Shown in pieces: positions 4,017 through 40,745 of a stretch of 42,110 nt of DNA; within the stretch, counting starts at the first letter, position 1, and each line of letters starts with the position of its first letter. Both the position numbers and the translations under genes were made by a program. Below the pieces are notes generated by a model, which did not search any database, was not told the origin of the DNA, and saw only the letters and a program-made list of their open reading frames with translations. Origin of the DNA: a virus; IMG/VR virus record IMGVR_UViG_3300037117_000312, positions 1-42,110 of that record. One strand, given 5' to 3'.

Positions 4017-4959
4017 TACAAAGCGGGGTCTCAGCCACGCGGCAGTTGATCTCCTGCTCCGAGTCGTCGAGACATCAAACGCGGTGATCGCTGGGCCGGT
4101 ACTGACGGACTACTATCGACCAGTCGCAAACCAACTTCAGACGCATGGCCTGCTAGTGCCGGATGGATATGAAGCCGCGACGACCTCGCTTGCGGATCAC
4201 GATGACGTGCCCGTATCGGTGACGTGGTCAGCCGAGGCTGGGGGCTACGGATATTTCAGCGCCAGTGCCGGTTGGATAGCCGTGCCGACCAATCGACTGA
4301 ACACATTTCGCGTCAGCTTCGATCAGCTTTTCGATTGGGTTTTAGCGCGGCTCGATCTTTCGACCCACGAATCGCCTACGTCGCTCCGGCCCGATGTCTT
4401 GTGGGAGATCGGCGAGGTGCGGCTTCCAGGTCGCAGCAAGCGCGTTTCTCTCTGGATAGGTCGCAGGCTTGCTGATCCAAAAGTTTGGAATTGGTTCTGC
4501 GATACTGTTCGGGCGCGGCCAGCACCTGGATTGAGGGTCGTCCTCAGTCTGACGCCAGCCGATCAGCTCCCCGCGCAGGTCCTCCAAGGCCATTCGATCA
4601 TCGCAGTCCGAGATATCGCGGATCAGGCCGGCAGCCTGGTTGTCGATCCCAACCTTCTGGCTGCACGCGTCGCGTCGGGAACTCAACAGGGCGATGGGCT
4701 GATCTCAATAGCCGCCGACGGAGCATCGGTCATGGTTCGCGGTCAGCGTTACGTATTTTCAGGATCGAAGCAGCGCGCAATCATTCGACATCTCTACGAA
4801 GCCTGGCACTCCGGCAGTGCGGACTGCCTCACGGCGGAGGTCCTCCAGCACGCCGGATACTTGGACAGCGTCAACACGCTCACGAAAGCATTTTCCCGCA
4901 GAACAGACTGGCGCGACTTTATCGCGGAGAAGAATGGCCGCTGCTGGATGTTTCTCTGA
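4009..4959 (+). CDS. Unrecognised 316-aa protein, winged-helix-like C terminus
   Basis: No family is recognised over most of the length. The C-terminal 75 residues (RYVFSGSKQRAIIRHLYEAW onward, ending RCWMFL) have the pattern of a winged helix: a beta hairpin, helices with conserved hydrophobics, and a closing aromatic strand. This pattern is common at the C terminus of uncharacterised accessory proteins. The N-terminal 230 residues are alpha/beta and may form an effector or sensor part. The gene overlaps the upstream 388-aa gene by eight bases and must be translated with it, so the two proteins probably act together. There is no membrane segment. The role is unknown; a DNA-contacting partner of the 388-aa protein is a reasonable guess only. 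Confidence 0.82.
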   Translation: MSDTKRGLSHAAVDLLLRVVETSNAVIAGPVLTDYYRPVANQLQTHGLLVPDGYEAATTSLADHDDVPVSVTWSAEAGGYGYFSASAGWIAVPTNRLNTFRVSFDQLFDWVLARLDLSTHESPTSLRPDVLWEIGEVRLPGRSKRVSLWIGRRLADPKVWNWFCDTVRARPAPGLRVVLSLTPADQLPAQVLQGHSIIAVRDIADQAGSLVVDPNLLAARVASGTQQGDGLISIAADGASVMVRGQRYVFSGSKQRAIIRHLYEAWHSGSADCLTAEVLQHAGYLDSVNTLTKAFSRRTDWRDFIAEKNGRCWMFL

Positions 4960-5125
4960 GTCGCCACGTATTCCCCGACCATTAATTGCCCAAGGCGACT
5001 TTCTTGCTTGCGGCACGGCAAATCATCGATTCCTACCTTGAATCCTACCTCGCACCTTCCCGGTTCCTTCCCCCACACCCCGCATCTTCCTCGCAGTTTT
5101 TCGTTGCAACCTGCTGGAGGACGCA
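4960..5125. other. Intergenic region before early phage genes
   Basis: This 166-base gap separates the two-gene module from the AlpA-type gene. The plus strand is very pyrimidine-rich from 5031 to 5092 and starts with TCCTACCT repeated at 5031-5038 and 5043-5050 (12-base period). GGAGG just before 5126 is the ribosome site of the next gene. I see no convincing sigma-70 promoter. It may carry the early promoter or a regulator site. Confidence 0.4.
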
Positions 5126-5347
5126 ATGTCCGTCAAACACCTGAATCAAATCGATCTGGCCTGCCGTTGGGACATCAGCCCGCGCACTCTTGAGCGCTGG
5201 CGTTGGCTCGGTCAGGGACCTCGCTACATCAAGATCGGCGGCCGGGTCGTCTATCGCCTTGACGACGTCGAGGCATACGAAGTGCAGCAAGCGCGCACAA
5301 GCACTTCAAATATTCCCGAGGTCTCGTCCCACACGAGCCGTGCCTGA
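5126..5347 (+). CDS. AlpA/excisionase-type helix-turn-helix protein
   Basis: This 73-aa protein has the MerR-like winged HTH of AlpA and phage excisionases. CRWDISPRTLERWRWLGQGP contains the recognition helix, and KIGGRVVYRLDDVEAYE contains the wing and the typical closing helix. In phages and integrative elements such proteins direct excision or activate early genes. The start is an ATG preceded by GGAGGACGCA, a strong ribosome site. It is the first gene of the early operon, 20 bases upstream of the primase-helicase. The far-away integrase at 40953 would be its partner if it acts as an excisionase. The short Ser/Thr-rich tail is not part of the fold. Confidence 0.85.
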   Translation: MSVKHLNQIDLACRWDISPRTLERWRWLGQGPRYIKIGGRVVYRLDDVEAYEVQQARTSTSNIPEVSSHTSRA

Positions 5348-5367
5348 ACTCACAACGGCAGATTTTG

Positions 5368-7725
5368 ATGATGACCGACGGAGCAGGCGCCAACCAACCG
5401 GTTGACCCGAACCCAGCGATGATCGGGATCTTTGTGAAGATCCTGTTCAATTATTGCGAAGGCTGGGTCGCGGTACGCGAGTTTCCTGAAAAGGGAGGCG
5501 CAAATCGAGCGCCGAACACGCCGTTTTTCGCCACCAATTCCAATCTTGCGGACAAGCTCGCGAACGAAGCAGACGCCGCCGCCAAGACGGGGCTGGCCCT
5601 TTATGTCATTGCCGGCACGGTGTCGGCGCCCGGCAACGCAAAGGCTGCAGACGTCGTTGCCATGCAGGTGGTCCTGGTCGACTTGGACCACGGCGACATC
5701 GCAAAAAAACGCCAGCACCTGGTCGATCATCTCGGGACGCCGTCCCTTGAGGTCGCGTCCGGCGGAGTCACACTCGAGGGACAACGCAAACTTCACCTCT
5801 ATTGGAAGCTGACCGAACCAGCCCAAGGCGATGGCATCGGCACGGTTTGCCGCCTGAGGGGTGTGATTGCTGCCAAGGTTGGCGGCGATCCTTCGTTTCG
5901 TTCGGCACATCAGCCGATCCGTGTCGCGGGATCCGTATACCGAAAGGGCGGCGTCCAGCGCCTCACCACCATCCTTGCCGAGAATCCAGCCGAGTACGAT
6001 CTCGCCGAGTTGACCGAGGTGGTCACGGCGATGCCCGCACTCGCGGGCGAGGCCATATCTGACTCCGCCCCCAATAATGGAAACGCGCCCAAGGGCACGG
6101 TCACCGAACTGTTCGGTCAACGCATCCGAGAAAACGGCGTCGATGGCACGACTCGCTTCGAAGCCTTGAGCCGAATTATCGGTTACTGGATTCGCCGTTG
6201 CCGCGATGGGCAGGTGACGCGAGAGAAGGCTTGGGAGGAGATCGTTGCCTACAACGAGGCGCGTATCGAACCGCCCTGGCCGCTCGATCGACTGACGCAC
6301 GAAGCCGAGCAGTTGTGGCGTCGGGATATGAAACAAAACGGCGACGCCAGCGGAGGCGTTGGTGGCACGGCCGGCGGGGACAGTGGCGGCGAATCCGTCC
6401 CGGCGAAATTCACCGAAGATGCCATCGCTCTCGAGTTCACCGTTCGCTTTGGTGCCAACTGGTCATTTGTGGCTGCTTGGGGGCAGTGGCTCACATGGTC
6501 GGGCGCGCGGTGGGAGCGTGAGACGACGCTGCGTGCCTTCGATCTGGCGCGTCTCGTCTGTCGCGATTCGGCGGCGTCGTGTCCCAAGGCGAACATTAAA
6601 GCCAGACTTTCTAGCGCGAGTACTGTAGCGGCGGTCGAGCGCCTTGCCCGTGCCGATCGACGGCATGCGGCCGAAAGCGATCAGTGGGATCGCGACCCGT
6701 GGCTGCTCAATGCGCCGGGAGGAATCGTCGACCTTCGCACCGGCGAATTGCTGGCCCACGACCGGGACCTCGCCATGACCAAGATGGCGACCGCGAGCCC
6801 AAATGGCGACTGCCCGGTTTGGCGGCAATTCCTGCAAACCGTAACCGCCGGCGATGCCGAGCTGCAGGCATATATCCGCCGTGTCGTTGGCTACGCCCTC
6901 ACCGGCGCTACGACCGAGCACGCGTTGTTTTTTCTCTATGGCACTGGCGCCAACGGAAAGTCGGTCTTCGTCAACGTGATTTCTACGGTACTCGGCGACT
7001 ACGCGACCACAGCCCCGATCGACATGTTCATGGCGACGACCGGGGATCGACACCCGACCGATATGGCAGGACTGCGCGGCGCGCGCCTGGTTGCAGCAAT
7101 CGAAACGGAGCAGGGACGCCGCTGGGCCGAGAGCAAGCTTAAGGCGTTAACCGGCGGCGACAAAATCACCGCGCGCTTCATGCGGCAGGATTTTTTCGAG
7201 TTCACCCCCCAATTTAAGCTTGTCATCGCCGGCAACCACAAGCCCGCCATCCGCAACATCGATGAGGCCATGCGTCGGCGCCTACACATGGTCCCGTTCA
7301 CCGTGACCATTCCCCCGGCCCAGCGCGACAAGACCCTGACCGACCGCCTGCTGGCAGAGCGCGACGGCATTCTCGCTTGGGCAGTTGAGGGGTGCCTCGA
7401 ATGGCAGCGCGTCGGTCTCAACCCGCCTCGTGCTGTGCTCGCTGCGACCGAGGAATATTTCGACGACGAGGACGCGATCGGCCGGTGGATTTCGGAGGCT
7501 TGCGTCAAGGGTCCGTCCTACACGGAGTTGGTCTCGACGCTCTTCAATGCCTGGAAAACCGCGGCGGAGGCGACTGGCGAGCATTTCGGCTCGATCCGCA
7601 GCTTTTCGCAGAACCTTTCGGCGCGCGGCTTCGAGAAATGGCGCGAGCCGGTGAGTACCAAGAGAGGGTTTCGGGGCATTGCTCTCAAGTCGGGCAGCCA
7701 GTCGACCCCGGACATGGGGATTTGA
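5368..7725 (+). CDS. P4-family primase-helicase (RepB-like primase plus D5/SF3 helicase)
   Basis: This bifunctional replication initiator has an N-terminal archaeo-eukaryotic-type primase region (about residues 1-230). VVLVDLDHGDI supplies acidic metal ligands, and LEVASGGVTLEGQRKLHLYW resembles RepB-like primases. A Gly/Ser-rich linker near residues 325-345 leads to a D5_N/SF3 helicase. Walker A is GTGANGKS at about 525-532, then RLVAAIETEQGRRW, and the motif-C/sensor stretch FKLVIAGNHKP. A winged-helix end follows. Unwinding and priming by one protein is typical of P4-like phages and plasmids. An in-frame TTG at 5365 precedes ATG ATG; I use the first ATG. No other replication protein is present, so this enzyme probably drives prophage replication, perhaps from the repeat structure just downstream. 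Confidence 0.92.
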   Translation: MMTDGAGANQPVDPNPAMIGIFVKILFNYCEGWVAVREFPEKGGANRAPNTPFFATNSNLADKLANEADAAAKTGLALYVIAGTVSAPGNAKAADVVAMQVVLVDLDHGDIAKKRQHLVDHLGTPSLEVASGGVTLEGQRKLHLYWKLTEPAQGDGIGTVCRLRGVIAAKVGGDPSFRSAHQPIRVAGSVYRKGGVQRLTTILAENPAEYDLAELTEVVTAMPALAGEAISDSAPNNGNAPKGTVTELFGQRIRENGVDGTTRFEALSRIIGYWIRRCRDGQVTREKAWEEIVAYNEARIEPPWPLDRLTHEAEQLWRRDMKQNGDASGGVGGTAGGDSGGESVPAKFTEDAIALEFTVRFGANWSFVAAWGQWLTWSGARWERETTLRAFDLARLVCRDSAASCPKANIKARLSSASTVAAVERLARADRRHAAESDQWDRDPWLLNAPGGIVDLRTGELLAHDRDLAMTKMATASPNGDCPVWRQFLQTVTAGDAELQAYIRRVVGYALTGATTEHALFFLYGTGANGKSVFVNVISTVLGDYATTAPIDMFMATTGDRHPTDMAGLRGARLVAAIETEQGRRWAESKLKALTGGDKITARFMRQDFFEFTPQFKLVIAGNHKPAIRNIDEAMRRRLHMVPFTVTIPPAQRDKTLTDRLLAERDGILAWAVEGCLEWQRVGLNPPRAVLAATEEYFDDEDAIGRWISEACVKGPSYTELVSTLFNAWKTAAEATGEHFGSIRSFSQNLSARGFEKWREPVSTKRGFRGIALKSGSQSTPDMGI

Positions 7726-15903: not shown

Positions 15904-15991
15904 CCGCCGTGAGGCGGCTAGCCCAAACGCCGCTTGGGCAACGGCACTAGCGCCGTCGTGAGACGCCGCATTCCCTCAGATGGAGCCCCCT
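15904..15991 (+). promoter_or_regulatory. Structured 5' leader of capsid gene (copy 1)
   Basis: Three hairpins lie in series. H1 is CCGCC-GTGA-GGCGG at 15904-15917. H2 is GCCCAA / TTGGGC at 15921-15939 with loop ACGCCGC. H3 is ACGGC / GCCGT at 15941-15956. A conserved GGAGCCCCC ribosome site then precedes the ATG. A second copy stands before the tail gene at 20591. H2 and its surroundings are identical over 29 bases between copies, and H1 and H3 differ only by changes that keep pairing. Probably an RNA element that sets stability or translation of abundant virion proteins. Confidence 0.75.
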
Positions 15992-17368
15992 ATGAGCACG
16001 GTCACTGACCTTGTGAAGAAGCGCGCGCTCGCCTTTGACGCATTCAAGGCGCTCGCCGACAAAGAAACTCTCAGCGAAAACGAGGCGAAAGATTACGACA
16101 CGAAGAAGCGTGCCGTGACCGATCTCGACGGACAGATCACGCGCGCCAAAGACGCAAGTGATTTGGCCGCCGCCACCGCACAGCCGGTTGCTGGCCAGGA
16201 GGTGCGCACCGTTCCCGCAGCGGTCGAGACCGACCGCTACGTCAAGGAGCGCAGCCTGGTCATCGGCGGCGTGATGAAAATGCTCGGACGCGGCCATGGC
16301 AGCGTGCGGCTCGCTCACGAGGAATCGGTTTCGATCTATGGCGAGAACCATCCGGTCACGCGTGCGCTGATTACTTCGGCTGGCGCTTCGGGTGGATTTA
16401 TCGTCCCGCCCGACTACATGAACGAGATCATCGAGCTCTTGCGCCCGATGGCCGTCGTTCGTGGCGCCGGTCCCCGCGTCATTCCTATGCCGCGCGGAAC
16501 AATGACGCTACCCGGTCAGGCCAGCGCCGCAACCGCGACTTACGGTTCGGAAGTGGCCCAGATCGCATCGTCCCAGCAGTCGCTCAACCAAATCGTCGCT
16601 AGCTACAAGAAGCTGACGGCCCTGGTGCCAGTCTCGAACGACATGATGCGCTATGCGGACCCCGCCGTTGACGCCTTCGTGCGCGACGACCTGGTCAAGG
16701 TCATTGCCCTGCGTGAAGACCTAGCGTTTCTGCTCGGCGACGGGACCCTGTCGACGCCTCGTGGTTATACTTCATTCGCAAACGGCTATGCGACGGCAAA
16801 CGCCGGCACCGCGGGCATTTGGTCTTCGACCGCCAACTCGACTGCAGCGTCGGGCGGCAACTTCATCACCAGCAACGAGACCTATACTCTCGCGACGGTA
16901 GCGACGGAGCTTGGCGGTCAGGTCAATAAGCTGGACACCGCAAACGTTCCCGACATCAAACGGGTGTGGTTCATGCACCCGCGTTCCTACAACTACCTCT
17001 ACAACGTGCAGAACTCGCTCGGCGTCTATGTGTATCGCGATGAGCTCTCGACCGGAAAACTCATCGGCTATCCGGTGAAGCGCACGACACAGATCCCGAT
17101 CAACATCCACGACGCCAGCAGCACGCACACCGATTGCTCGTTCGTGTTTCTCGCCGAAATGGAAGAGACCATGATCCTTGATTCCATGTCGCTCGAGCTC
17201 GCCGTCAGCCGCGAGGGCACCTATGTCGACGGCTCCGGCAATACGATCAGCGCGTTCCAAAACGACCAGACCCTGATCCGCGCCATCGCCGAGCATGACT
17301 TCCAGATGCGTCACGACGCGTCTGTCGCGGTCAACCAGTTCGTGCGCTGGGCTCCGGCCATCAGCTAA
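15992..17368 (+). CDS. Major capsid protein, HK97 fold
   Basis: This 458-aa protein is the head shell subunit. The N-terminal 115 residues are coiled and Ala/Lys/Glu-rich (delta or scaffold part) and are probably removed by the protease. Then come SGGFIVPPDYMNEIIELLRP, MPRGTMTLPGQASAATATYGSE, ASYKKLTALVPVSNDMMRYADP and LAFLLGDGTLSTPRGYTSFAN, all typical of HK97-like capsids. An in-frame ATG at 15980 exists, but GGAGCCCCC (15982-15990) directly precedes the ATG at 15992, matching the arrangement at the tail gene, so I choose 15992. The gene has its own structured leader and so is likely translated at a different level from the protease. Confidence 0.96.
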   Translation: MSTVTDLVKKRALAFDAFKALADKETLSENEAKDYDTKKRAVTDLDGQITRAKDASDLAAATAQPVAGQEVRTVPAAVETDRYVKERSLVIGGVMKMLGRGHGSVRLAHEESVSIYGENHPVTRALITSAGASGGFIVPPDYMNEIIELLRPMAVVRGAGPRVIPMPRGTMTLPGQASAATATYGSEVAQIASSQQSLNQIVASYKKLTALVPVSNDMMRYADPAVDAFVRDDLVKVIALREDLAFLLGDGTLSTPRGYTSFANGYATANAGTAGIWSSTANSTAASGGNFITSNETYTLATVATELGGQVNKLDTANVPDIKRVWFMHPRSYNYLYNVQNSLGVYVYRDELSTGKLIGYPVKRTTQIPINIHDASSTHTDCSFVFLAEMEETMILDSMSLELAVSREGTYVDGSGNTISAFQNDQTLIRAIAEHDFQMRHDASVAVNQFVRWAPAIS

Positions 17369-18550: not shown

Positions 18551-19465
18551 ATGGGCGTTGCGATCCTAAAGACCGTTCGTGCGCCCGCTGCTGATTACGA
18601 TTTGACCGATCTGGCGACGGTCAAGGATGAGCTGAACATTCCCTCCACGGACACGTCGAACGACACCTGGCTTGCCCGCGCGATCAGTCAGGTTTCGGCG
18701 ATCGTTTCACGCTACTGCAACCGCGTGTTCCTGCCAGAACTATTGCTCGAAACCCAGTACATCGAACAAGACGCTTATCCCAATCAGACTCCTGGTGGTA
18801 TCGCGCCGCTACAGCTCAGCCGCTGGCCCATCCTCAGTCTGGTATCCGTAGCGCAAGTCACGGCGATCAATTCAAGACAGGCGCTCGTTCAGGGCACTGA
18901 TTTCGCGGTCGACTTCGATAAGGGCCAGCTGATCAGACTTAACCCTTTCACCGGCGTCGCGATGGTTTGGGCAGCGCTTCCCACCATCATCGAATACAGC
19001 GCCGGCTATGGAGCGGTCGCAGCGGAAAATCAAACGGTGCCGGCCACGCCGGGCCCTTACACGGTAACAGTCAACAATGCGGCCACATTCTCTTTCGACG
19101 GCGGCGTTACTTACGCGAATGGAACTGAGTTCACGGCGGTCACTGGCACGCCGGCGACTGCTGGCGAATACAGCGTCGCTATGGCCACCGGCATCTACAG
19201 CTTCAACGCGGCCGATCAGGGCGCGTCAATCGTCATCGACTACGGCTATTCGGATATCCCCGACGACTTGATCGATGCGGTGCTGCGCGTCGTCACGCAG
19301 CGCTTCAAGCAGAAGGATCGCGATCCCATGCTCATGTCGATCAATCAGCCCGGCGTCGGCGAAAAGCGCTGGTGGGTCGGCACAACCGCCGGGCAGAACG
19401 GCGCCCTGCCGCCTGAGATCACCGGCCTCTTGGATGGTGTCTACCGCGTGCCCGTGATCGGGTGA
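18551..19465 (+). CDS. Head-tail connector (gp6-like) with inserted beta module
   Basis: The N terminus (DLATVKDELNIP, WLARAISQVSAIVSRYCNRVFLPE) and C terminus (IPDDLIDAVLRVVTQRFKQKDRDP) are those of HK97 gp6-like connectors, which form the ring joining portal to tail. Typical members are about 100-200 aa; this one is 304 aa. The extra material, roughly residues 155-235, contains AGEYSVAMATGIYSFNAADQ followed by GASIVIDYGY. A related stretch lies in the tail tube protein (20683). The module probably adds a surface-exposed beta domain to the neck. The ATG at 18551 has GGTGAGGC upstream. Confidence 0.88.
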   Translation: MGVAILKTVRAPAADYDLTDLATVKDELNIPSTDTSNDTWLARAISQVSAIVSRYCNRVFLPELLLETQYIEQDAYPNQTPGGIAPLQLSRWPILSLVSVAQVTAINSRQALVQGTDFAVDFDKGQLIRLNPFTGVAMVWAALPTIIEYSAGYGAVAAENQTVPATPGPYTVTVNNAATFSFDGGVTYANGTEFTAVTGTPATAGEYSVAMATGIYSFNAADQGASIVIDYGYSDIPDDLIDAVLRVVTQRFKQKDRDPMLMSINQPGVGEKRWWVGTTAGQNGALPPEITGLLDGVYRVPVIG

Positions 19466-20590: not shown

Positions 20591-20682
20591 CCGCTACCTA
20601 AAAAGCGGAGAGCCCAAACGCCGCTTGGGCAACGGCACTCGCGCTGTCGAGAGACACCGCATACCTACAGACGGAGCCCCCA
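20591..20682 (+). promoter_or_regulatory. Structured 5' leader of tail tube gene (copy 2)
   Basis: This is the second copy of the leader found before the capsid gene. H1 is CCGCT / AGCGG (20591-20595 and 20604-20608): the innermost pair is T-A where copy 1 has C-G. H2 GCCCAA / TTGGGC at 20612-20630 is identical, loop included. H3 ACGGC / GCTGT near 20632-20647 replaces a G-C pair by G-T, which still pairs in RNA. GGAGCCCCC precedes the ATG. Spacing between H1 and H2 (three bases) is the same in both copies. Confidence 0.75.
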
Positions 20683-21459
20683 ATGACTACGAATACCGTT
20701 CCGCAGGGGCTTTTTGGCCCCGGCATTCTTTATTTGACGCGCACCGACATTGCGAACGCGACGCCGACGAATGTCGGCTACGTCAACGAATTCTCGACGG
20801 ATTTCACATTCTCGACGAAGGAGCTCTACGGACAGAACCAGTTCCCGCTGCTCGTCGCGCGCGGCACGGCCAAGTGCACCGGCAAGATCAAGGCGGCAAC
20901 TCTGTCCGGGCAGGCGCTCAACTCGCTTCTAATTGGTGGCACATGGACGGCGGGAACGCAGTACGAGATGGCTTCGACGGCTGCGACGCCGATCCCGACG
21001 ACGCCATACGAGATCACGCCGACCGTGCCGTCGAGCGGCACTTGGAACAGCGATCTTGGTGTGGTCAATGCGGCAACCTACGAGCCGCTGACGCAAGTCC
21101 CAAGCGCTCCCACGGCCGGGCAGTATTCGGTCTCGGCGGGCGTTTACACTTTCTCGTCCGCCGATCACGGCTCTGCCATCAGCGTGATCATCACCTACAG
21201 CTATACATTCGCCTCTGGTGCCACCGGGCAGAGCATGACGATCACCAACCAGCCGATCGGTACCACGCCCACCTTCCAGCTTGACTACAAGACGTCGCTT
21301 TATGGTTCGACCTATTACATCCGGCTTTTCCAAGCCGTCGCAAACAAATGGACTATGGGCCACAAGCTCGAAGATTTCGCGATGCCGGAATACGACTTCA
21401 GCTTTTTCGCCAATGCAGCGCAGCAGATCGGCATCATCAGCCTCGCAACGCTGGCGTAA
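20683..21459 (+). CDS. Major tail (tube) protein with beta module
   Basis: This 258-aa protein occupies the major tail tube position after the terminator and before the tail chaperones. N-terminal GPGILYLTRTD and VGYVNEFSTDFTFSTKELYGQ and C-terminal KLEDFAMPEYDFSFFANA are typical of rhizobial siphovirus tube proteins. Between them lies PTAGQYSVSAGVYTFSSAD followed by HGSAISVIITYSY, a module shared with the connector at 18551, perhaps exposed on the tail surface. It has a structured leader like that of the capsid gene and the same GGAGCCCCC ribosome site, consistent with both proteins being needed in very high copy number. Confidence 0.86.
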   Translation: MTTNTVPQGLFGPGILYLTRTDIANATPTNVGYVNEFSTDFTFSTKELYGQNQFPLLVARGTAKCTGKIKAATLSGQALNSLLIGGTWTAGTQYEMASTAATPIPTTPYEITPTVPSSGTWNSDLGVVNAATYEPLTQVPSAPTAGQYSVSAGVYTFSSADHGSAISVIITYSYTFASGATGQSMTITNQPIGTTPTFQLDYKTSLYGSTYYIRLFQAVANKWTMGHKLEDFAMPEYDFSFFANAAQQIGIISLATLA

Positions 21460-24668: not shown

Positions 24669-25769
24669 GTGGCTCTCAAAGTCTGGGACGGATTTGATCA
24701 CTATCTCACCGCGACCGATTGGAAGTCGCGTTTGAATAATTTCGTGCAGTATCAACAGCCCGCCACAAATGGAACGCCGATCAGTTTTGTCACAGGACGC
24801 AATGGCTTCGGCAAGGCGCTGTATCTAGAACAGGGCAACACATACTCCTATGCCGTCTTCGGGCAGCGGGTCTCGAGCGCCTTTGTCGGGTTCGCATGCC
24901 AATTTAACGAAACCGGCACCGGAGCGGACTTCACGTTCTTCGACACGGTGACGGGACTGGGCAACGTCAACGTGTTCTTCAATCCCGCGAATTACTCGGT
25001 GCAGATTTATCGCGGCGATCGCCAGGTCTCGGGAGCGGTATTGCTTTACGCTGGGCCAAATAATCAGTGGGCGGACAACGTCTGGAATTTCATCGAGATT
25101 TGGCCGGTCATCGACGCATCGACCGGCTCGGTGACGGTGCACGTCAATGGTGTAACGGTTGCTGCGGTCACAGGCGTCAACACGGTCTTCAGCGAGACGA
25201 GCTATCCGTTTATCACGGCGAACGCCTGGTGGGATGCGATGGCGATGCGCGCCTACAATATCTCGGGCAGTCCGGGGATGTGCATTGACGACCTGTATTA
25301 TGCCGATACGACAACCGGGCCCGGCCTTACACCCTGCAACACCTTCCTTGGCGACTGCCGCGTGCAGACGCTCTTCGCAACCGGCAACGATGCGGTTCAA
25401 TGGACGCCCTTGGCCGGCTCGAACTGGCAGGAAGTCGCCGAGACGGCGATGGATTCGGATACGTCCTACAATTACACGTCCACGCCAGGCCAGCAGGACA
25501 CGCTCAATTTCGGGGCGCTGGCCGGCACCATCACGACCCTATACGGCATCCAACTCACCTATGCAGCGCGCAAGGACGATGCGGGCGCCCGTTCGGTGAA
25601 ATCGATCGTCAAGATCGCCGGCACGTCCTACGCCGGCGCGACGAACTCGCTCCCCGACGACAGCTACGCCTACTTCACCGACCAGTGGATTCTCAATCCG
25701 AACACCGGACTGAATTGGGTGATCAGCGGCGTCAACGGCGCGGCCTATGGCTACAACATGGTGAGCTGA
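24669..25769 (+). CDS. Tail protein with LamG/concanavalin-like fold
   Basis: This 366-aa protein starts VALKVWDGFDHYLTATDW, the pattern of phage tail proteins with a jelly-roll (concanavalin A-like) domain: long strands with conserved Asn, Gly and aromatic residues (FVGFACQFNETGTGADFTFFD, VTVHVNGVTVAAVTG, MCIDDLYYAD). The C-terminal third (residues 240-366) contains alternating beta motifs. It follows the tape measure gene. AAGGGAG lies before GTG 24669, which I prefer over the longer frame starting at 24573. It is probably a distal tail or carbohydrate-binding component; ligand unknown. Confidence 0.78.
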   Translation: MALKVWDGFDHYLTATDWKSRLNNFVQYQQPATNGTPISFVTGRNGFGKALYLEQGNTYSYAVFGQRVSSAFVGFACQFNETGTGADFTFFDTVTGLGNVNVFFNPANYSVQIYRGDRQVSGAVLLYAGPNNQWADNVWNFIEIWPVIDASTGSVTVHVNGVTVAAVTGVNTVFSETSYPFITANAWWDAMAMRAYNISGSPGMCIDDLYYADTTTGPGLTPCNTFLGDCRVQTLFATGNDAVQWTPLAGSNWQEVAETAMDSDTSYNYTSTPGQQDTLNFGALAGTITTLYGIQLTYAARKDDAGARSVKSIVKIAGTSYAGATNSLPDDSYAYFTDQWILNPNTGLNWVISGVNGAAYGYNMVS

Positions 25770-25770
25770 T

Positions 25771-26673
25771 ATGGCCGACCGCATCAGCCAAGAGGTCGTC
25801 GAGGCTGAAATCGTCGGGGCACCTAACGCCAGGGTCAGCCAGGAAGTCGTCGAGACCGAGGTTGTCGGAACGCCTGTTGCGCGCGTCAGCCAAGAGGTTG
25901 TCGAGGCTGAAGTCACTGCGACCCCGAATGCGCGCATCAGTCAGGAAGTTGTTGAGGCGCAAGTCGCCGCCACTCCGAACATTCGGATTTCACAGATCGT
26001 CGTCGAGTGCCTCGTCCCGGACATAGGGGTTTTCATGCCGCTCGTTTACCCAACCCTCCCGGGCCTCGGCTATTCGGTGCTGTGGAAGCCAAAGTTCTTC
26101 AATATGCCGACGCAGACAACGACGATGGGCGCCGACCTCGATCTTGGATTGGCGAGCACACCGCTACATGACTTCGAGCTGACCTATGAGCTGCTGCGGG
26201 ACACGTTTGCAGTCGGCACGTCGGAATTCAAAACCATGCTCGGCTTTTTTGGCGCGATGAGCGGCAATCTCGGGCGCTTCCTGTTCAAGAATCCCGACGA
26301 CAATTACGTTGCCTCTCAGGCCATCGCCACGACGGACGGCACAACGCATTTGTGGACGCTGAACCGCACCTACGGCGTCGGCGAATATTCGTGGACGGAG
26401 CCGGTCGGCTATATCGATCTGACGCTGCCGTTCAATGTCTATTTGGGCGGAGTGCTTCAGGACCCAAGCAGCTATTCGGTGCAGGTGACTGAGCCCGCGC
26501 TGCAGCAGATCCAGTTCACTTCGACGCCTGCGACCGGACAGGAGATCACGGTCGACATGAGCTATTTTTATTACTGTAAGCTGTCGGCCGACACGCTGAG
26601 CTTCGAAAAGTTCATGAATAAGCTCTGGCTGCTGAAGAAGGTGACGCTTCACTCCTGCAGAGCCGGGGCGTGA
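25771..26673 (+). CDS. DUF2460-like tail protein with 17-residue tandem repeats
   Basis: The C-terminal 200 residues (VLWKPKFFNMPTQ, FELTYELLRD, FKTMLGFFGAMSGNLGRFLFKNPDDN, GVGEYSWTEPVGYID) match the DUF2460 distal-tail family of siphoviruses and gene transfer agents. The N terminus adds four full and one partial copy of a 17-residue unit built on RISQEVVEAEV and an Ala/Gly-Thr-Pro turn. This repeat is not part of DUF2460 and probably forms a short beta solenoid or fibre-like spike. The gene lies one base after the LamG-like gene stop (TGATATG) and just before the DUF2163 gene. Confidence 0.87.
   Translation: MADRISQEVVEAEIVGAPNARVSQEVVETEVVGTPVARVSQEVVEAEVTATPNARISQEVVEAQVAATPNIRISQIVVECLVPDIGVFMPLVYPTLPGLGYSVLWKPKFFNMPTQTTTMGADLDLGLASTPLHDFELTYELLRDTFAVGTSEFKTMLGFFGAMSGNLGRFLFKNPDDNYVASQAIATTDGTTHLWTLNRTYGVGEYSWTEPVGYIDLTLPFNVYLGGVLQDPSSYSVQVTEPALQQIQFTSTPATGQEITVDMSYFYYCKLSADTLSFEKFMNKLWLLKKVTLHSCRAGA
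25780..26022 (+). repeat. 51-bp tandem repeats encoding RxSQEVVE units
   Basis: Units start at 25780, 25831, 25882, 25933 and 25984 (last partial). Each encodes Arg-Ile/Val-Ser-Gln-Glu-Val-Val-Glu, a short strand, then a Thr-Pro or Ala-Pro turn. The DNA units differ at many synonymous positions while the protein is kept, so selection acts on the protein and the array is not a recent duplication. Confidence 0.8.
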
Positions 26674-37236: not shown

Positions 37237-37464
37237 TCACTCGCGCGGCTTTCTTCGATCCTGCAACTCTGCGTCTGCTATTCGAAATCCTGACGCGCGC
37301 AGAGCTCGAAGAATAATCGTACGCTGTGTGGTTCCCTCCATCGCTGCCCGCACTCCAATTTCATGCTTTACATGGGGCGGCAACATGACTTGCAGTGCTA
37401 CGTCACCATCCTCCCCTCGCTTCGCCCTGTTCTTGGGGATGGAACGCGCACGCAAAGAGCTCAT
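37237..37464 (-). CDS. Small ribbon-helix-helix-like regulator
   Basis: This 75-aa protein has a basic start (MSSLRARSIPKNRAKRG), then a strand DVALQVMLPP, helix HVKHEIGVRAAMEG and helix TTQRTIILRALRASGF. That is the ribbon-helix-helix layout of small repressors or antitoxin-like regulators. AGAGG lies seven bases before the ATG at 37464, strong support for a real gene. It is the first gene of the leftward operon, 22 bases before the GHKL gene, facing the Dcm operon across the divergent promoter. It is a probable autoregulator of the operon; targets are not determined. Confidence 0.72.
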   Translation of the reverse strand: MSSLRARSIPKNRAKRGEDGDVALQVMLPPHVKHEIGVRAAMEGTTQRTIILRALRASGFRIADAELQDRRKPRE

Positions 37465-37731
37465 TTGCCGCCTCTAGTTCACTACTTCATGATATCAGGA
37501 CTTCCAGGATTGAACATCTCTTTGTTCGAGAGGGGGGTCCCGGCGATCGTCCCTCCCGATTCCCAATTCGTCGCCGCCCGGAAACGATCAAGTCCGCAAG
37601 GGCGTGCACCAGCAAAGTGCCCAAAAGTCACAGGAAAATACTTCGCGGACCTTATCGGCGTTCTTGCGTTGTTCTCCGGAAGCGAATCTGACATCCTGTC
37701 AAAAATCGACCTAGATGATTTGGGGGTGTCC
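37465..37731. promoter_or_regulatory. Divergent control region between the two cargo operons
   Basis: This 267-base gap lies between the RHH start and the methyltransferase start. A 13-base palindrome TGACATCCTGTCA is at 37689-37701. CTGACA (37688-37693) may be a -35 box, with a weak -10-like TAGATG 18 bases on, leaving a very short leader before the ribosome site GGGGG at 37722-37726. The palindrome overlaps that -35, so the HTH of the methyltransferase, which starts the next gene, could autoregulate here. The divergent operon promoter is not identified. Confidence 0.55.
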
Positions 37732-38964
37732 GTGACCGAGTTTGCTTCACTTCGTCAGAAGGCGGGACTGTCAGTGACGGACGCCGCACAACATCTCGGT
37801 TACACCGAACGCCAGATATACCGGCTGGAGAGCGGCGAGATTCAGGCCCGCAAGGCAATCCTCGATCTGTTACGCGCCATGCGGCCCGCGAATGACCGGC
37901 GCGACGAAGACAGCGCCAAGTTCACATTCATCGACTTGTTCGCTGGCATCGGCGGCATGCGGATGGGCTTTGAAGCTGCGGGCGGCAGATGCGTCTTCAC
38001 TTCGGAATGGAATACCTACAGCCAGAAAACCTACCGCGCGAATTTTCCGTCGGACGATCATGAGATTGCTGGCGACATTCGTGGAGTGCGCGAGCAGTAC
38101 ATCCCGGCGCACGATGTCCTGGTGGCCGGATTTCCGTGCCAGCCCTTTTCGATTGCAGGCGTGTCAAAGAAGAATGCGCTCAACCGTCCGCACGGTTTTG
38201 ACTGCGAAACCCAGGGCACGCTGTTCTTCGACATCGAACGCATTCTTGCGTATCACCGGCCCCGCGCTTTCCTGCTTGAGAACGTGAAAAACTTGGTCAA
38301 TCACGACCAAGGCCGCACGTTCGCCGTGATCCTGAACGTGCTCCAGCGCAAACTCGGCTATCACGTGAGCTGGCGGGTGATCGACGCCAAGCCGTGGGTT
38401 CCCCAACATCGCGAACGCACATTCATTGTCGGGTTCAGGGACAAGTCGGACTTTTCGATGGAGTCATTGGAGGTCCCTGATGTGAAGCGTGGACCCAAGC
38501 TGTCGAGCATTCTCCATTCGCACGCCGAGGAGCCCGAGTTTCCGTATTCGGTAGATGGCCGTGCGTCCGACAAGTACACGCTGACGCCGCACCTCTGGAA
38601 CTATCTTCAAAACTACGCGGCAAAGCATAAGGCTGCGGGTAATGGTTTTGGCTTCGGGATAAATGGCCCGGATAACGTGGCGCGCACACTCTCTGCCCGG
38701 TACTACAAGGACGGTTCTGAAATTCTCATCAAGCAGCGGGGCAAGCCACCGCGCCGTCTGACGCCGCGCGAATGCGCTCGGCTGATGGGTTTTGACGCAC
38801 CGGGAAGAATGCCCTTCAAAATCCCGGTCTCCGATACGCAGGCTTACAAGCAGTTCGGCAATGCTGTGGTTGTGCCGGTGGTGACAAAGGTAGCAAAATT
38901 CATGGCACCGCATATTGTCGCCGCCACGGAGACGCCAAAAAGAAAGCGGGCCACACGTGGCTGA
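37732..38964 (+). CDS. dcm: HTH-fused cytosine-5 DNA methyltransferase (Dcm type)
   Basis: This 410-aa enzyme transfers a methyl group to cytosine C5. The first 45 residues are an XRE-like HTH (VTEFASLRQKAGLSVTDAAQ, then RQIYRLESGE), as in some Dcm/EcoRII-type enzymes that repress themselves. Catalytic motifs follow in order: FIDLFAGIGGMRMGF, GFPCQPFSIAG with catalytic Cys136, LLENVKNL, QHRERTFIVGF, a target-recognition region, LTPRECARLMGF, and QFGNAVVVPV at the end. An upstream in-frame start at 37363 would overlap the RHH gene; I choose GTG 37732 because GGGGG stands before it and the HTH begins there. It starts a tight operon with vsr and an MvaI-like nuclease. CCWGG-type specificity is inferred from these partners. 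Confidence 0.93.
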   Translation: MTEFASLRQKAGLSVTDAAQHLGYTERQIYRLESGEIQARKAILDLLRAMRPANDRRDEDSAKFTFIDLFAGIGGMRMGFEAAGGRCVFTSEWNTYSQKTYRANFPSDDHEIAGDIRGVREQYIPAHDVLVAGFPCQPFSIAGVSKKNALNRPHGFDCETQGTLFFDIERILAYHRPRAFLLENVKNLVNHDQGRTFAVILNVLQRKLGYHVSWRVIDAKPWVPQHRERTFIVGFRDKSDFSMESLEVPDVKRGPKLSSILHSHAEEPEFPYSVDGRASDKYTLTPHLWNYLQNYAAKHKAAGNGFGFGINGPDNVARTLSARYYKDGSEILIKQRGKPPRRLTPRECARLMGFDAPGRMPFKIPVSDTQAYKQFGNAVVVPVVTKVAKFMAPHIVAATETPKRKRATRG

Positions 38965-39425: not shown

Positions 39426-40745
39426 ATGGAACCGGACTATGGTGATCTCGACCGCCTGAAGAACATGATGGCCGCTGCTGGCGTTCGCCGCCTGGTCGCA
39501 AAGCGGCTGGCATCGAACGACAATTCGAAGAACCAGGTCTATCTGGGCGGTGGCTTCGAAGCGCTGAACACCCTGCCGTTTGGCGAGATTTACGAAGACA
39601 GCAGCGAGAAGAACCAGATTTTGAAAGCGCCACTGAATTTCAGGTGGCTGAATCCGGACGGCACGACCGTCAACGCGCCCAGTGCGCAGCTCATCCTCTA
39701 TCCGCAATATCCCGAAGTGCGGATGTCAGGGTTTCTGAAAGGCACAAAAAACGCGCCTGCCGACCTGATGGCCGAGCGTATGGCCGGCCGCGTGCTGTTC
39801 ATGGGCATTGATGACAACGGCGTCATTACAGGCGTCGTCGTCTCGCCGGAGTCTGCCCTGGCGCGGGAATTCGAGGCGGCTGTTGCTGGCCAAGATGATC
39901 GCGTTTTCTACGAACTTGCGATCACCGCAGCTGCTGTGGACACAAGGGCGCGCCTGATTGCCGAACTGAAGCGCATCAGCGGTCTTGGCTGGATCAATTC
40001 GAAGCGGCTGCGCGGTGATGGCTCGCTTGGCCCATGCGAAGCGCCCAACTGCGGCGGTTATACACTTGAAGCTGAACTGGGCGTCAAACCAAACGGGTTC
40101 TCCGAACCGGACTTCCTCGGCTGGGAAGTAAAACAGCATACCGTGAGCAATATCACAAAGCCGACAAGCGGCGGTCCGATCACCCTGATGACCCCGGAAC
40201 CGACCGGAGGGTTCTATCGCGACAAGGGCGTCGAGGCCTTCCTGCGCAAATACGGCTACGCCGATCGCATGGGCCGCGAAGACCGGATCAATTTTGGTGG
40301 CGTCTATCGCGTCGGCGCGAAAGTCGAGCTGACAGGCCTGACCATGACGCTCGACGGCTATGACGCCGCCTCGGGCAAGATCACCGATACCTCGAAAGGC
40401 ATCACGCTGGTTGATGACAAGGGCAACCACGCCGCGGTCTGGGGTTACACTGGGCTCATCAAGCACTGGGCGCGGAAGCACGAACGCGCCGTCTACATTC
40501 CATCCCTGGTGCGCAATGAGCCGCAGCGCCAGTATCAGTATTCAAATTCTGTGCTGCTGGGACAGGAAACGGACTTCTTCCGGTTTCTGCGGGCGATGTC
40601 GGCGGGACAGATTTATTACGATCCAGGCATCAAACTCGAAGCCGCATCCACCAAAGCGCCAAAGACCAAGCGGCGCAGCCAGTTCCGCGTCCGGGTACAG
40701 GACCTGTCGCGACTATATAAGAGAGCAGATCGCGTCGAAGTCTGA
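39426..40745 (+). CDS. MvaI/BcnI-family restriction endonuclease
   Basis: This 439-aa nuclease matches the MvaI/BcnI family, monomeric PD-(D/E)XK enzymes that cut CCWGG or CCSGG. The catalytic core is EPDFLGWEVKQHT with Asp229, Glu234 and Lys236, preceded by CGGYTLEAELGVKPNG and followed by KPTSGGPITLMTPEPTGGF. The N-terminal 190 residues are an extension relative to the small MvaI enzyme (about 250 aa), perhaps a recognition or accessory domain. It follows vsr by one base and the whole is a type II restriction-modification unit with Dcm. The exact site is unknown; Dcm and Vsr make a CC(N)GG-type target likely. Confidence 0.88.
   Translation: MEPDYGDLDRLKNMMAAAGVRRLVAKRLASNDNSKNQVYLGGGFEALNTLPFGEIYEDSSEKNQILKAPLNFRWLNPDGTTVNAPSAQLILYPQYPEVRMSGFLKGTKNAPADLMAERMAGRVLFMGIDDNGVITGVVVSPESALAREFEAAVAGQDDRVFYELAITAAAVDTRARLIAELKRISGLGWINSKRLRGDGSLGPCEAPNCGGYTLEAELGVKPNGFSEPDFLGWEVKQHTVSNITKPTSGGPITLMTPEPTGGFYRDKGVEAFLRKYGYADRMGREDRINFGGVYRVGAKVELTGLTMTLDGYDAASGKITDTSKGITLVDDKGNHAAVWGYTGLIKHWARKHERAVYIPSLVRNEPQRQYQYSNSVLLGQETDFFRFLRAMSAGQIYYDPGIKLEAASTKAPKTKRRSQFRVRVQDLSRLYKRADRVEV

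Follow-up and report, generated by a model that had tools for sequence, protein, structure and literature searches.

A putative pseudoknot RNA element in the leaders of major capsid and tail tube genes of a viral contig and its relatives

Introduction

Regarding short elements repeated before phage genes, the nearest described system to the leaders reported here is SAS/ESAS of the Cluster K mycobacteriophages, which is similar in place but unlike in structure and gene class. SAS/ESAS are repeats located immediately upstream of start codons, including the Shine-Dalgarno sequence (SD, GGAGCCC), and about half of the SAS are extended by an inverted repeat; their function is unknown, with a role in translation suspected (PMC3203893). 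They consist of a conserved DNA sequence, GGGATAGGAGCCC, and 17-bp imperfect inverted repeats, and accompany assorted genes within one phage cluster (PMC3203893). The leaders analyzed in our study, on the contrary, hold a covarying pseudoknot and are found in unrelated phages, at genes for the major capsid protein (MCP), the tail tube and the sheath. Their classification as SAS/ESAS was rejected, because only GGAGCCC is in common and the conserved 17-bp repeats are absent.

Several other systems resemble the element in particular traits. The leader of T4 gene 32 also has a pseudoknot upstream of the ribosome binding site (RBS) of a phage mRNA, and it binds the product of its own gene, whereas a large variety of unrelated virion proteins is encoded downstream of our element. 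A very small pseudoknot adjoining the RBS is likewise present in translational riboswitches of preQ1-I size, yet here there is no Rfam match and the candidate controlled genes are virion genes only. The HK022 put antiterminator RNA is a small cis-acting phage RNA with hairpins as well, but its place is in early transcripts and its target is RNA polymerase, while the element described here keeps a fixed spacing to the start codon. Finally, the Mu-gpT-DE motif is an RNA motif beside a phage major head gene, located downstream of the gene, going by its name. In our case, no Rfam 15 family matched the window or the related loci at the curated threshold, or at E-values up to 0.5-5 on short stretches. 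No description of the element was found in the literature, where subscription papers could hold one, and what we observe is apparently a portable control element, not reported before, on the genes of the most abundant virion proteins.

Results and Discussion

The window, i.e., the whole stretch of DNA analyzed, is the complete record of a viral contig (42,110 bases). Its self-comparison revealed an ungapped match of 85% identity between positions 15914-16000 and 20605-20691, representing leaders of about 87 nt that precede an MCP gene of HK97 type and a gene whose product has no Pfam match and corresponds to phrog_8234 (Table 1). The AlphaFold model of this product resembles solved structures of tail tube proteins, with 8xkn_B as the best Foldseek match (E 5.1e-12), and this predicted fold confirms the gene as a tail tube gene. 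Within the leader pair, a 29-nt run from AGCCC to GGCACT, around the core, is without differences, GGAGCCCCC is common to both leaders, and the 24-nt core (at most 3 mismatches) has 2 sites in the window compared to 0 expected from shuffles. A leader duplicated before the capsid and tail tube genes, 29 identical bases around the second of three stem-loops (H2) and an unchanged ribosome site had all been proposed by an earlier sequence-only reading, which these results bear out. The MCP leader also contains an upstream in-frame ATG at 15980, with ACG at the same place in copy 2.

Table 1. Positions of the leader elements and associated genes in the window.
Feature	Position	Strand	Evidence
MCP gene, HK97 type	15992-17368	+	PF05065, E 2.4e-36; phrog_10
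Tail tube protein gene (phrog_8234)	20683-21459	+	AF2 pLDDT 87.4; Foldseek 8xkn_B
SD GGAG, then CCCCC, then MCP start ATG (15992-15994)	15982-15994	+	sequence
SD GGAGCCCCC and tail tube start codon	20673-20685	+	sequence
H1 hairpin copy 1, CCGCC-GUGA-GGCGG, just 5' of pseudoknot	15904-15917	+	fold; hairpin in most relatives
Pseudoknot copy 1	15921-15945	+	covariation in relatives; R1 model, 29.2 bits
Copy 1 helix S1, GCCC with GGGC	15921-15924 with 15936-15939	+	covariation
Copy 1 helix S2, GCCG with CGGC	15929-15932 with 15942-15945	+	covariation
Copy 1 pseudoknot loops, L1 AAAC, L2 CUU, L3 AA			
H3 hairpin copy 1, GCG-C-CGUC-GUGA-GACG-C-CGC, GNRA loop, 1x1 mismatch (C.C)	15950-15969	+	fold; covariation
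H1 hairpin copy 2, CCGCU/AGCGG, 8-nt loop	20591-20608	+	fold; compensatory C-G to U-A vs. copy 1
Pseudoknot copy 2	20612-20636	+	leader match; 29-nt identity; R1 model
Copy 2 helix S1	20612-20615 with 20627-20630	+	
Copy 2 helix S2	20620-20623 with 20633-20636	+	
H3 hairpin copy 2, GCG-C-UGUC-GAGA-GACA-C-CGC	20641-20660	+	fold; compensatory C-G to U-A vs. copy 1

Several other features of the window were also observed. The C-terminal residues 162-235 of the head-tail adaptor (18551-19465) match the tail tube family phrog_8234, which suggests a shared domain. Adjacent genes at 37363-38964 and 39426-40745, coding for a C5 cytosine methylase with an N-terminal helix-turn-helix and for an MvaI/BcnI-type restriction endonuclease, are predicted to be a phage-borne restriction-modification pair. 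At 25780-25976, 51-nt tandem units are located within coding DNA (ORFs 25400-26026 and 25771-26673), the latter ORF carrying a DUF2460 domain.

Single-sequence folding of the two window leaders was unremarkable (z -0.46 and -1.29), and since these values are non-significant, folding energy was dismissed as proof of structure; two window copies alone cannot provide such proof, which has to come from relatives. Protein-anchored loci were taken from viral contigs (80 for related MCPs and 80 for related tube proteins) and from bacterial genomes (25). The same core was found upstream of most related MCPs, with the left arm of H2, as originally drawn (GCCCAA/UUGGGC), kept only as GCCC. The conserved unit is a compact pseudoknot of 24-30 nt, GCCC-N3..11-b-CUU-GGGC-AA-b', where b' is complementary to b and the strand order GCCC (a), b, GGGC (a'), b' is that of an ABAB pseudoknot. 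The b/b' forms include GCC/GGC, GCCG/CGGC, CGGC/GCCG, GCGG/CCGC, GAGC/GCUC, UCC/GGA and others. Fitting by eye added the divergent loops CGGGGG/CCCCCG (locus L004), GUGCCGC/GCGGCGU (L057) and GACGC/GCGUC (L082), as well as a GGCC/GGCC form of S1 (L050).

In a loop-anchored alignment of 59 related-MCP leaders, chosen by loop similarity only, 92.4% of the S2 cells and 88.6% of the S1 cells were paired, and the covariation score of S2 was 0.389, in comparison to 0.118 after shuffling and at most 0.135 with slid partners. The inner three S2 pairs were kept in 19 of 20 distinct b/b' combinations (re-dealt mean 8.5, maximum 15 in 2000 rounds), and a complete S1 partner was present in 52 of the 59 leaders, compared to 12.9 with the upstream sequence shuffled (maximum 22 in 1000). 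The fourth S1 pair occurs as C-G, G-C, A-U, U-A and U-G in a gapless set (n = 25) chosen for S1 pairing. Furthermore, viral contigs were scanned twice with this pair left free and with no condition on the downstream gene; among the scan matches listed, it was Watson-Crick in 26 of 34 strict leaders, versus 15.2 when permuted (0/5000). As three S1 pairs and the loop were invariant in the scan pattern, variation of S1 and of the loop is under-sampled. At L368 the tube copy lost the fourth pair, and some tube copies are without it.

Two interleaved helices, each with compensatory changes, are what defines an H-type (ABAB) pseudoknot, and both were found here. The pairing of S1 and of S2 is supported by covariation across the compared leaders, and we infer that the two helices would form simultaneously in one molecule; the same covariation also fits two alternating states, in which case S1 and S2 could be alternatives of a switch instead of one knot. 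With only 4 pairs in S1 and 2 nt in L3, the unit is tight for a classical H-type pseudoknot, and the short L3 suggests a kissing-like loop-to-strand geometry rather than the classical H-type stack. As regards the three stem-loops of the sequence-only reading, a structured element is present in the form of a pseudoknot with a hairpin on either side, but independent stem-loops were rejected, since only GCCC of the left H2 arm is conserved and the H2 loop pairs downstream. H2 is one of the two helices in the pseudoknot, and S2 had been overlooked. Further covarying copies, as sought by the same reading, were found both in relatives and in the scans of viral contigs.

Repeats at gene boundaries of mosaic genomes, together with a core that is a partial inverted repeat, could also point to a site acting at the level of DNA, such as a late promoter, a regulator site or a recombination boundary for module exchange. 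Such a site is hardly credible, given that the S2 arms change together with complementarity kept, that L1 is variable, and that the element shows both a spacing to the start codon and a bias to the sense strand (95 sense and 2 antisense in the protein-anchored loci).

The pseudoknot is accompanied by hairpins. A hairpin at the position of H1 is found in most relatives, usually abutting the pseudoknot, with a mean z of -2.5 and a freely variable sequence; between the window copies, its change from CCGCC/GGCGG to CCGCU/AGCGG keeps the pairing, as previously claimed. H3 is present in 94 of 142 leaders (about two thirds), approximately 4 nt after the pseudoknot. A GNRA loop is common in it, as is a 1x1 mismatch (A.C or C.C) located two or three pairs from the base, and its covariation score is 0.611 in comparison to 0.197 after shuffling. 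This hairpin replaces the H3 drawn earlier, apparently GGC..GCC, and the supported difference between the window copies is C-G to U-A on both sides instead of the G-C to G-T change described for it.

Terminator-like hairpins with a T-run were observed immediately ahead of the SD in MCP leaders, in loci with the knot (L023, L034, L230) as well as without it (L042, L047, L353). An element acting on transcription, either as a put-like antiterminator or as an attenuator with H3 as its terminator, would be in accordance with such hairpins in relatives devoid of the knot and with a T-run following H3 in 7 of 142 leaders (e.g., L023, L230). However, most H3 hairpins have no T-run, and those of the window are without the U-run of an intrinsic terminator. 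In addition, a fixed start-codon spacing would be needless for such an element, and it is placed locally before two genes, not once per operon, making a transcriptional role very improbable.

The position of the element relative to the start codon is narrowly constrained. In leaders with H3, the distance to the start codon is 51 nt from the loop end (IQR 49-53) and 23 nt from the end of H3 (IQR 22-24), while in leaders without H3 the median distance from the loop end is 25.5 nt and the last helix of the knot ends near 21 nt. Accordingly, about 20-24 nt separate the end of the last helix from the start codon, which places this helix just behind the footprint of the initiating 30S subunit, and this is the fixed spacing expected of a translation-initiation element. 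The SD is in a GGAGCC context in 73 of 142 element leaders, in comparison to 23 of 230 control GGAG starts. An element that simply keeps the RBS open was rejected, because its predicted accessibility is nearly equal in element leaders (0.49) and control starts (0.46). Among the three roles offered in the sequence-only reading, namely stability, processing and translation, we infer that translation initiation is favored, as the spacing is fixed and the last helix falls just behind the 30S subunit.

The main and best rival to translation is transcript stabilization, or mRNA end protection, which we nevertheless consider unlikely. A late polycistronic mRNA would be cut upstream of the element, H1 and the knot would protect the resulting 5' end against RNase E or RNase J, and the MCP and tube segments would outlive their neighbors. 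The restriction of the element to the highest-copy genes is in line with such a role, as is an H1 that abuts the knot and has good stability with nearly any sequence. A compact knot would block RNase J, an enzyme that occurs in alphaproteobacteria, and the spacing could also suit the mark of a protected 5' end. On the other hand, end protection does not require narrow spacing to the start codon, and no cleavage signature is known.

In regard to the genes carrying the element, MCP, tail tube/major tail or sheath genes follow 76 of the 84 distinct leaders among the scan matches listed (MCP 33, tail tube/major tail 40, tail sheath 3, others 8). The scan class termed coding accepts any open frame of 150 codons on either strand of G+C-rich DNA, and for this reason it also contains real leaders. 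Downstream proteins belong to at least 6 MCP families (PF05065, PF03864, PF11651, PF20911, phrog_1005, phrog_1357, phrog_4523), at least 5 tube families (PF06199, PF18906, phrog_8234, phrog_158, phrog_807, phrog_1407) and the sheath family phrog_23. With so many families and so few gene roles, the element goes with what the gene does and not with its ancestry. Of 41 distinct MCP loci that extend far enough downstream, 13 (the window included) contain a second element 3.8-6.1 kb further downstream, before a gene of about 258 codons, which is the tube gene in the loci checked. Copies within one phage can differ, as in L170, with GCCC/GGGC before the MCP gene and GCCG/CGGC before the tube gene. 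The proposal that the two virion genes of highest copy number carry an RNA element is strongly supported by its covariation, its sense bias and its repeated occurrence upstream of unrelated MCP, tube and sheath families.

A regulated switch, in which S1/S2 states or a host or phage factor or ligand restrain the virion genes until late infection, could account for the conserved unpaired CUU and AA in a small pseudoknot near the RBS, reminiscent in dimensions and location of translational riboswitches and of the leader of T4 gene 32. We regard it as improbable, since the SD is paired weakly or not at all in the minimum-energy folds of both window leaders, and since the downstream capsid, tube and sheath families are unrelated, which excludes autoregulation by the product as a general rule. 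The same lack of relationship suggests a reader of the element common to the cell, such as the ribosome, an RNase or another RNA-binding protein.

The distribution of the element was inspected with a covariance model of 26 positions (R1), which scores the window copies 29.2 bits. Few matches were obtained in 385 genomes of Alphaproteobacteria and 399 phylum-wide genomes; the leader-like ones were in prophages only, upstream of tail tube genes (L376, L380), and no housekeeping copy was found by R1 in these genomes, where the other inspected matches were chance-like and inside genes. Among the cultured phages examined, only Rhodobacter phage RcapNL carries it, before the GTA-like major tail (tail tube) gene, and it is absent from Rhizobium phage 16-3, RHph_Y3_1, RHph_TM3_3_14B, LagS-V1, phi2LM21, phiAP1, phiKM1 and R4C. 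BLASTN comparison of the leader with phage records gave chance-level matches only. A rhizobial attribution, as in the sequence-only reading, could not be upheld, because the element is missing from the named prophages of Rhizobium, Agrobacterium, Mesorhizobium and Ancylobacter that encode an MCP of this family, while it is present in other alphaproteobacterial prophages and in metagenomic phages.

MCP leaders of prophages from these four genera present another hairpin, with a variable stem and a constant GACAG loop, about 60-110 nt before the MCP gene (L175, L177, L178, L180, L187, L028, L030, L038, L062). Its forms include CCGGC-GACAG-GCCGG, CCGAC-GACAG-GUCGG and CUGGC-GACAG-GCUGG, and in L081 it occurs together with the pseudoknot. 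Phage 16-3 and the RHph phages have yet another structure in their MCP leaders, a closing stem GGCAGGAC/GUCCUGCC around a CCGGC..GCCGG hairpin, found upstream of 4109 in 16-3 (L404), of 3856 in L405 and of 3155 in L406, and in RHph phages there is additionally a GCAA-capped hairpin. The MCP of 16-3 (4109-5375) is annotated with a ribosomal slip leading to a longer product.

Conclusions

The element can be viewed as a cis-acting structured RNA composed of a variable H1 and the pseudoknot, joined by H3 in about two thirds of leaders, with the last helix placed just behind the 30S footprint. Most likely, it would dock to the 30S platform, or to a protein on the platform, and such docking, with a host factor as the reader of the element, would raise or time initiation on the mRNA of MCP, tube and sheath genes. 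Judged from comparative sequence evidence, we give about an even chance to a cis-acting RNA that operates at translation initiation through 30S docking and a host factor. Its broader interpretation, as a portable, host-factor-recognized ribosome-docking RNA common to unrelated phages and serving as a high-expression tag for abundant virion proteins, is possible, and is put forward more tentatively.

Phages have to produce hundreds of capsid and tube copies versus few portals from one operon, and the setting of these ratios is only partly understood. An RNA module marking exactly the high-copy virion genes would make the ratio question testable with one small element. At the same time, the element may provide a sequence flag by which MCP, tail tube and sheath genes could be recognized in phages without annotation.
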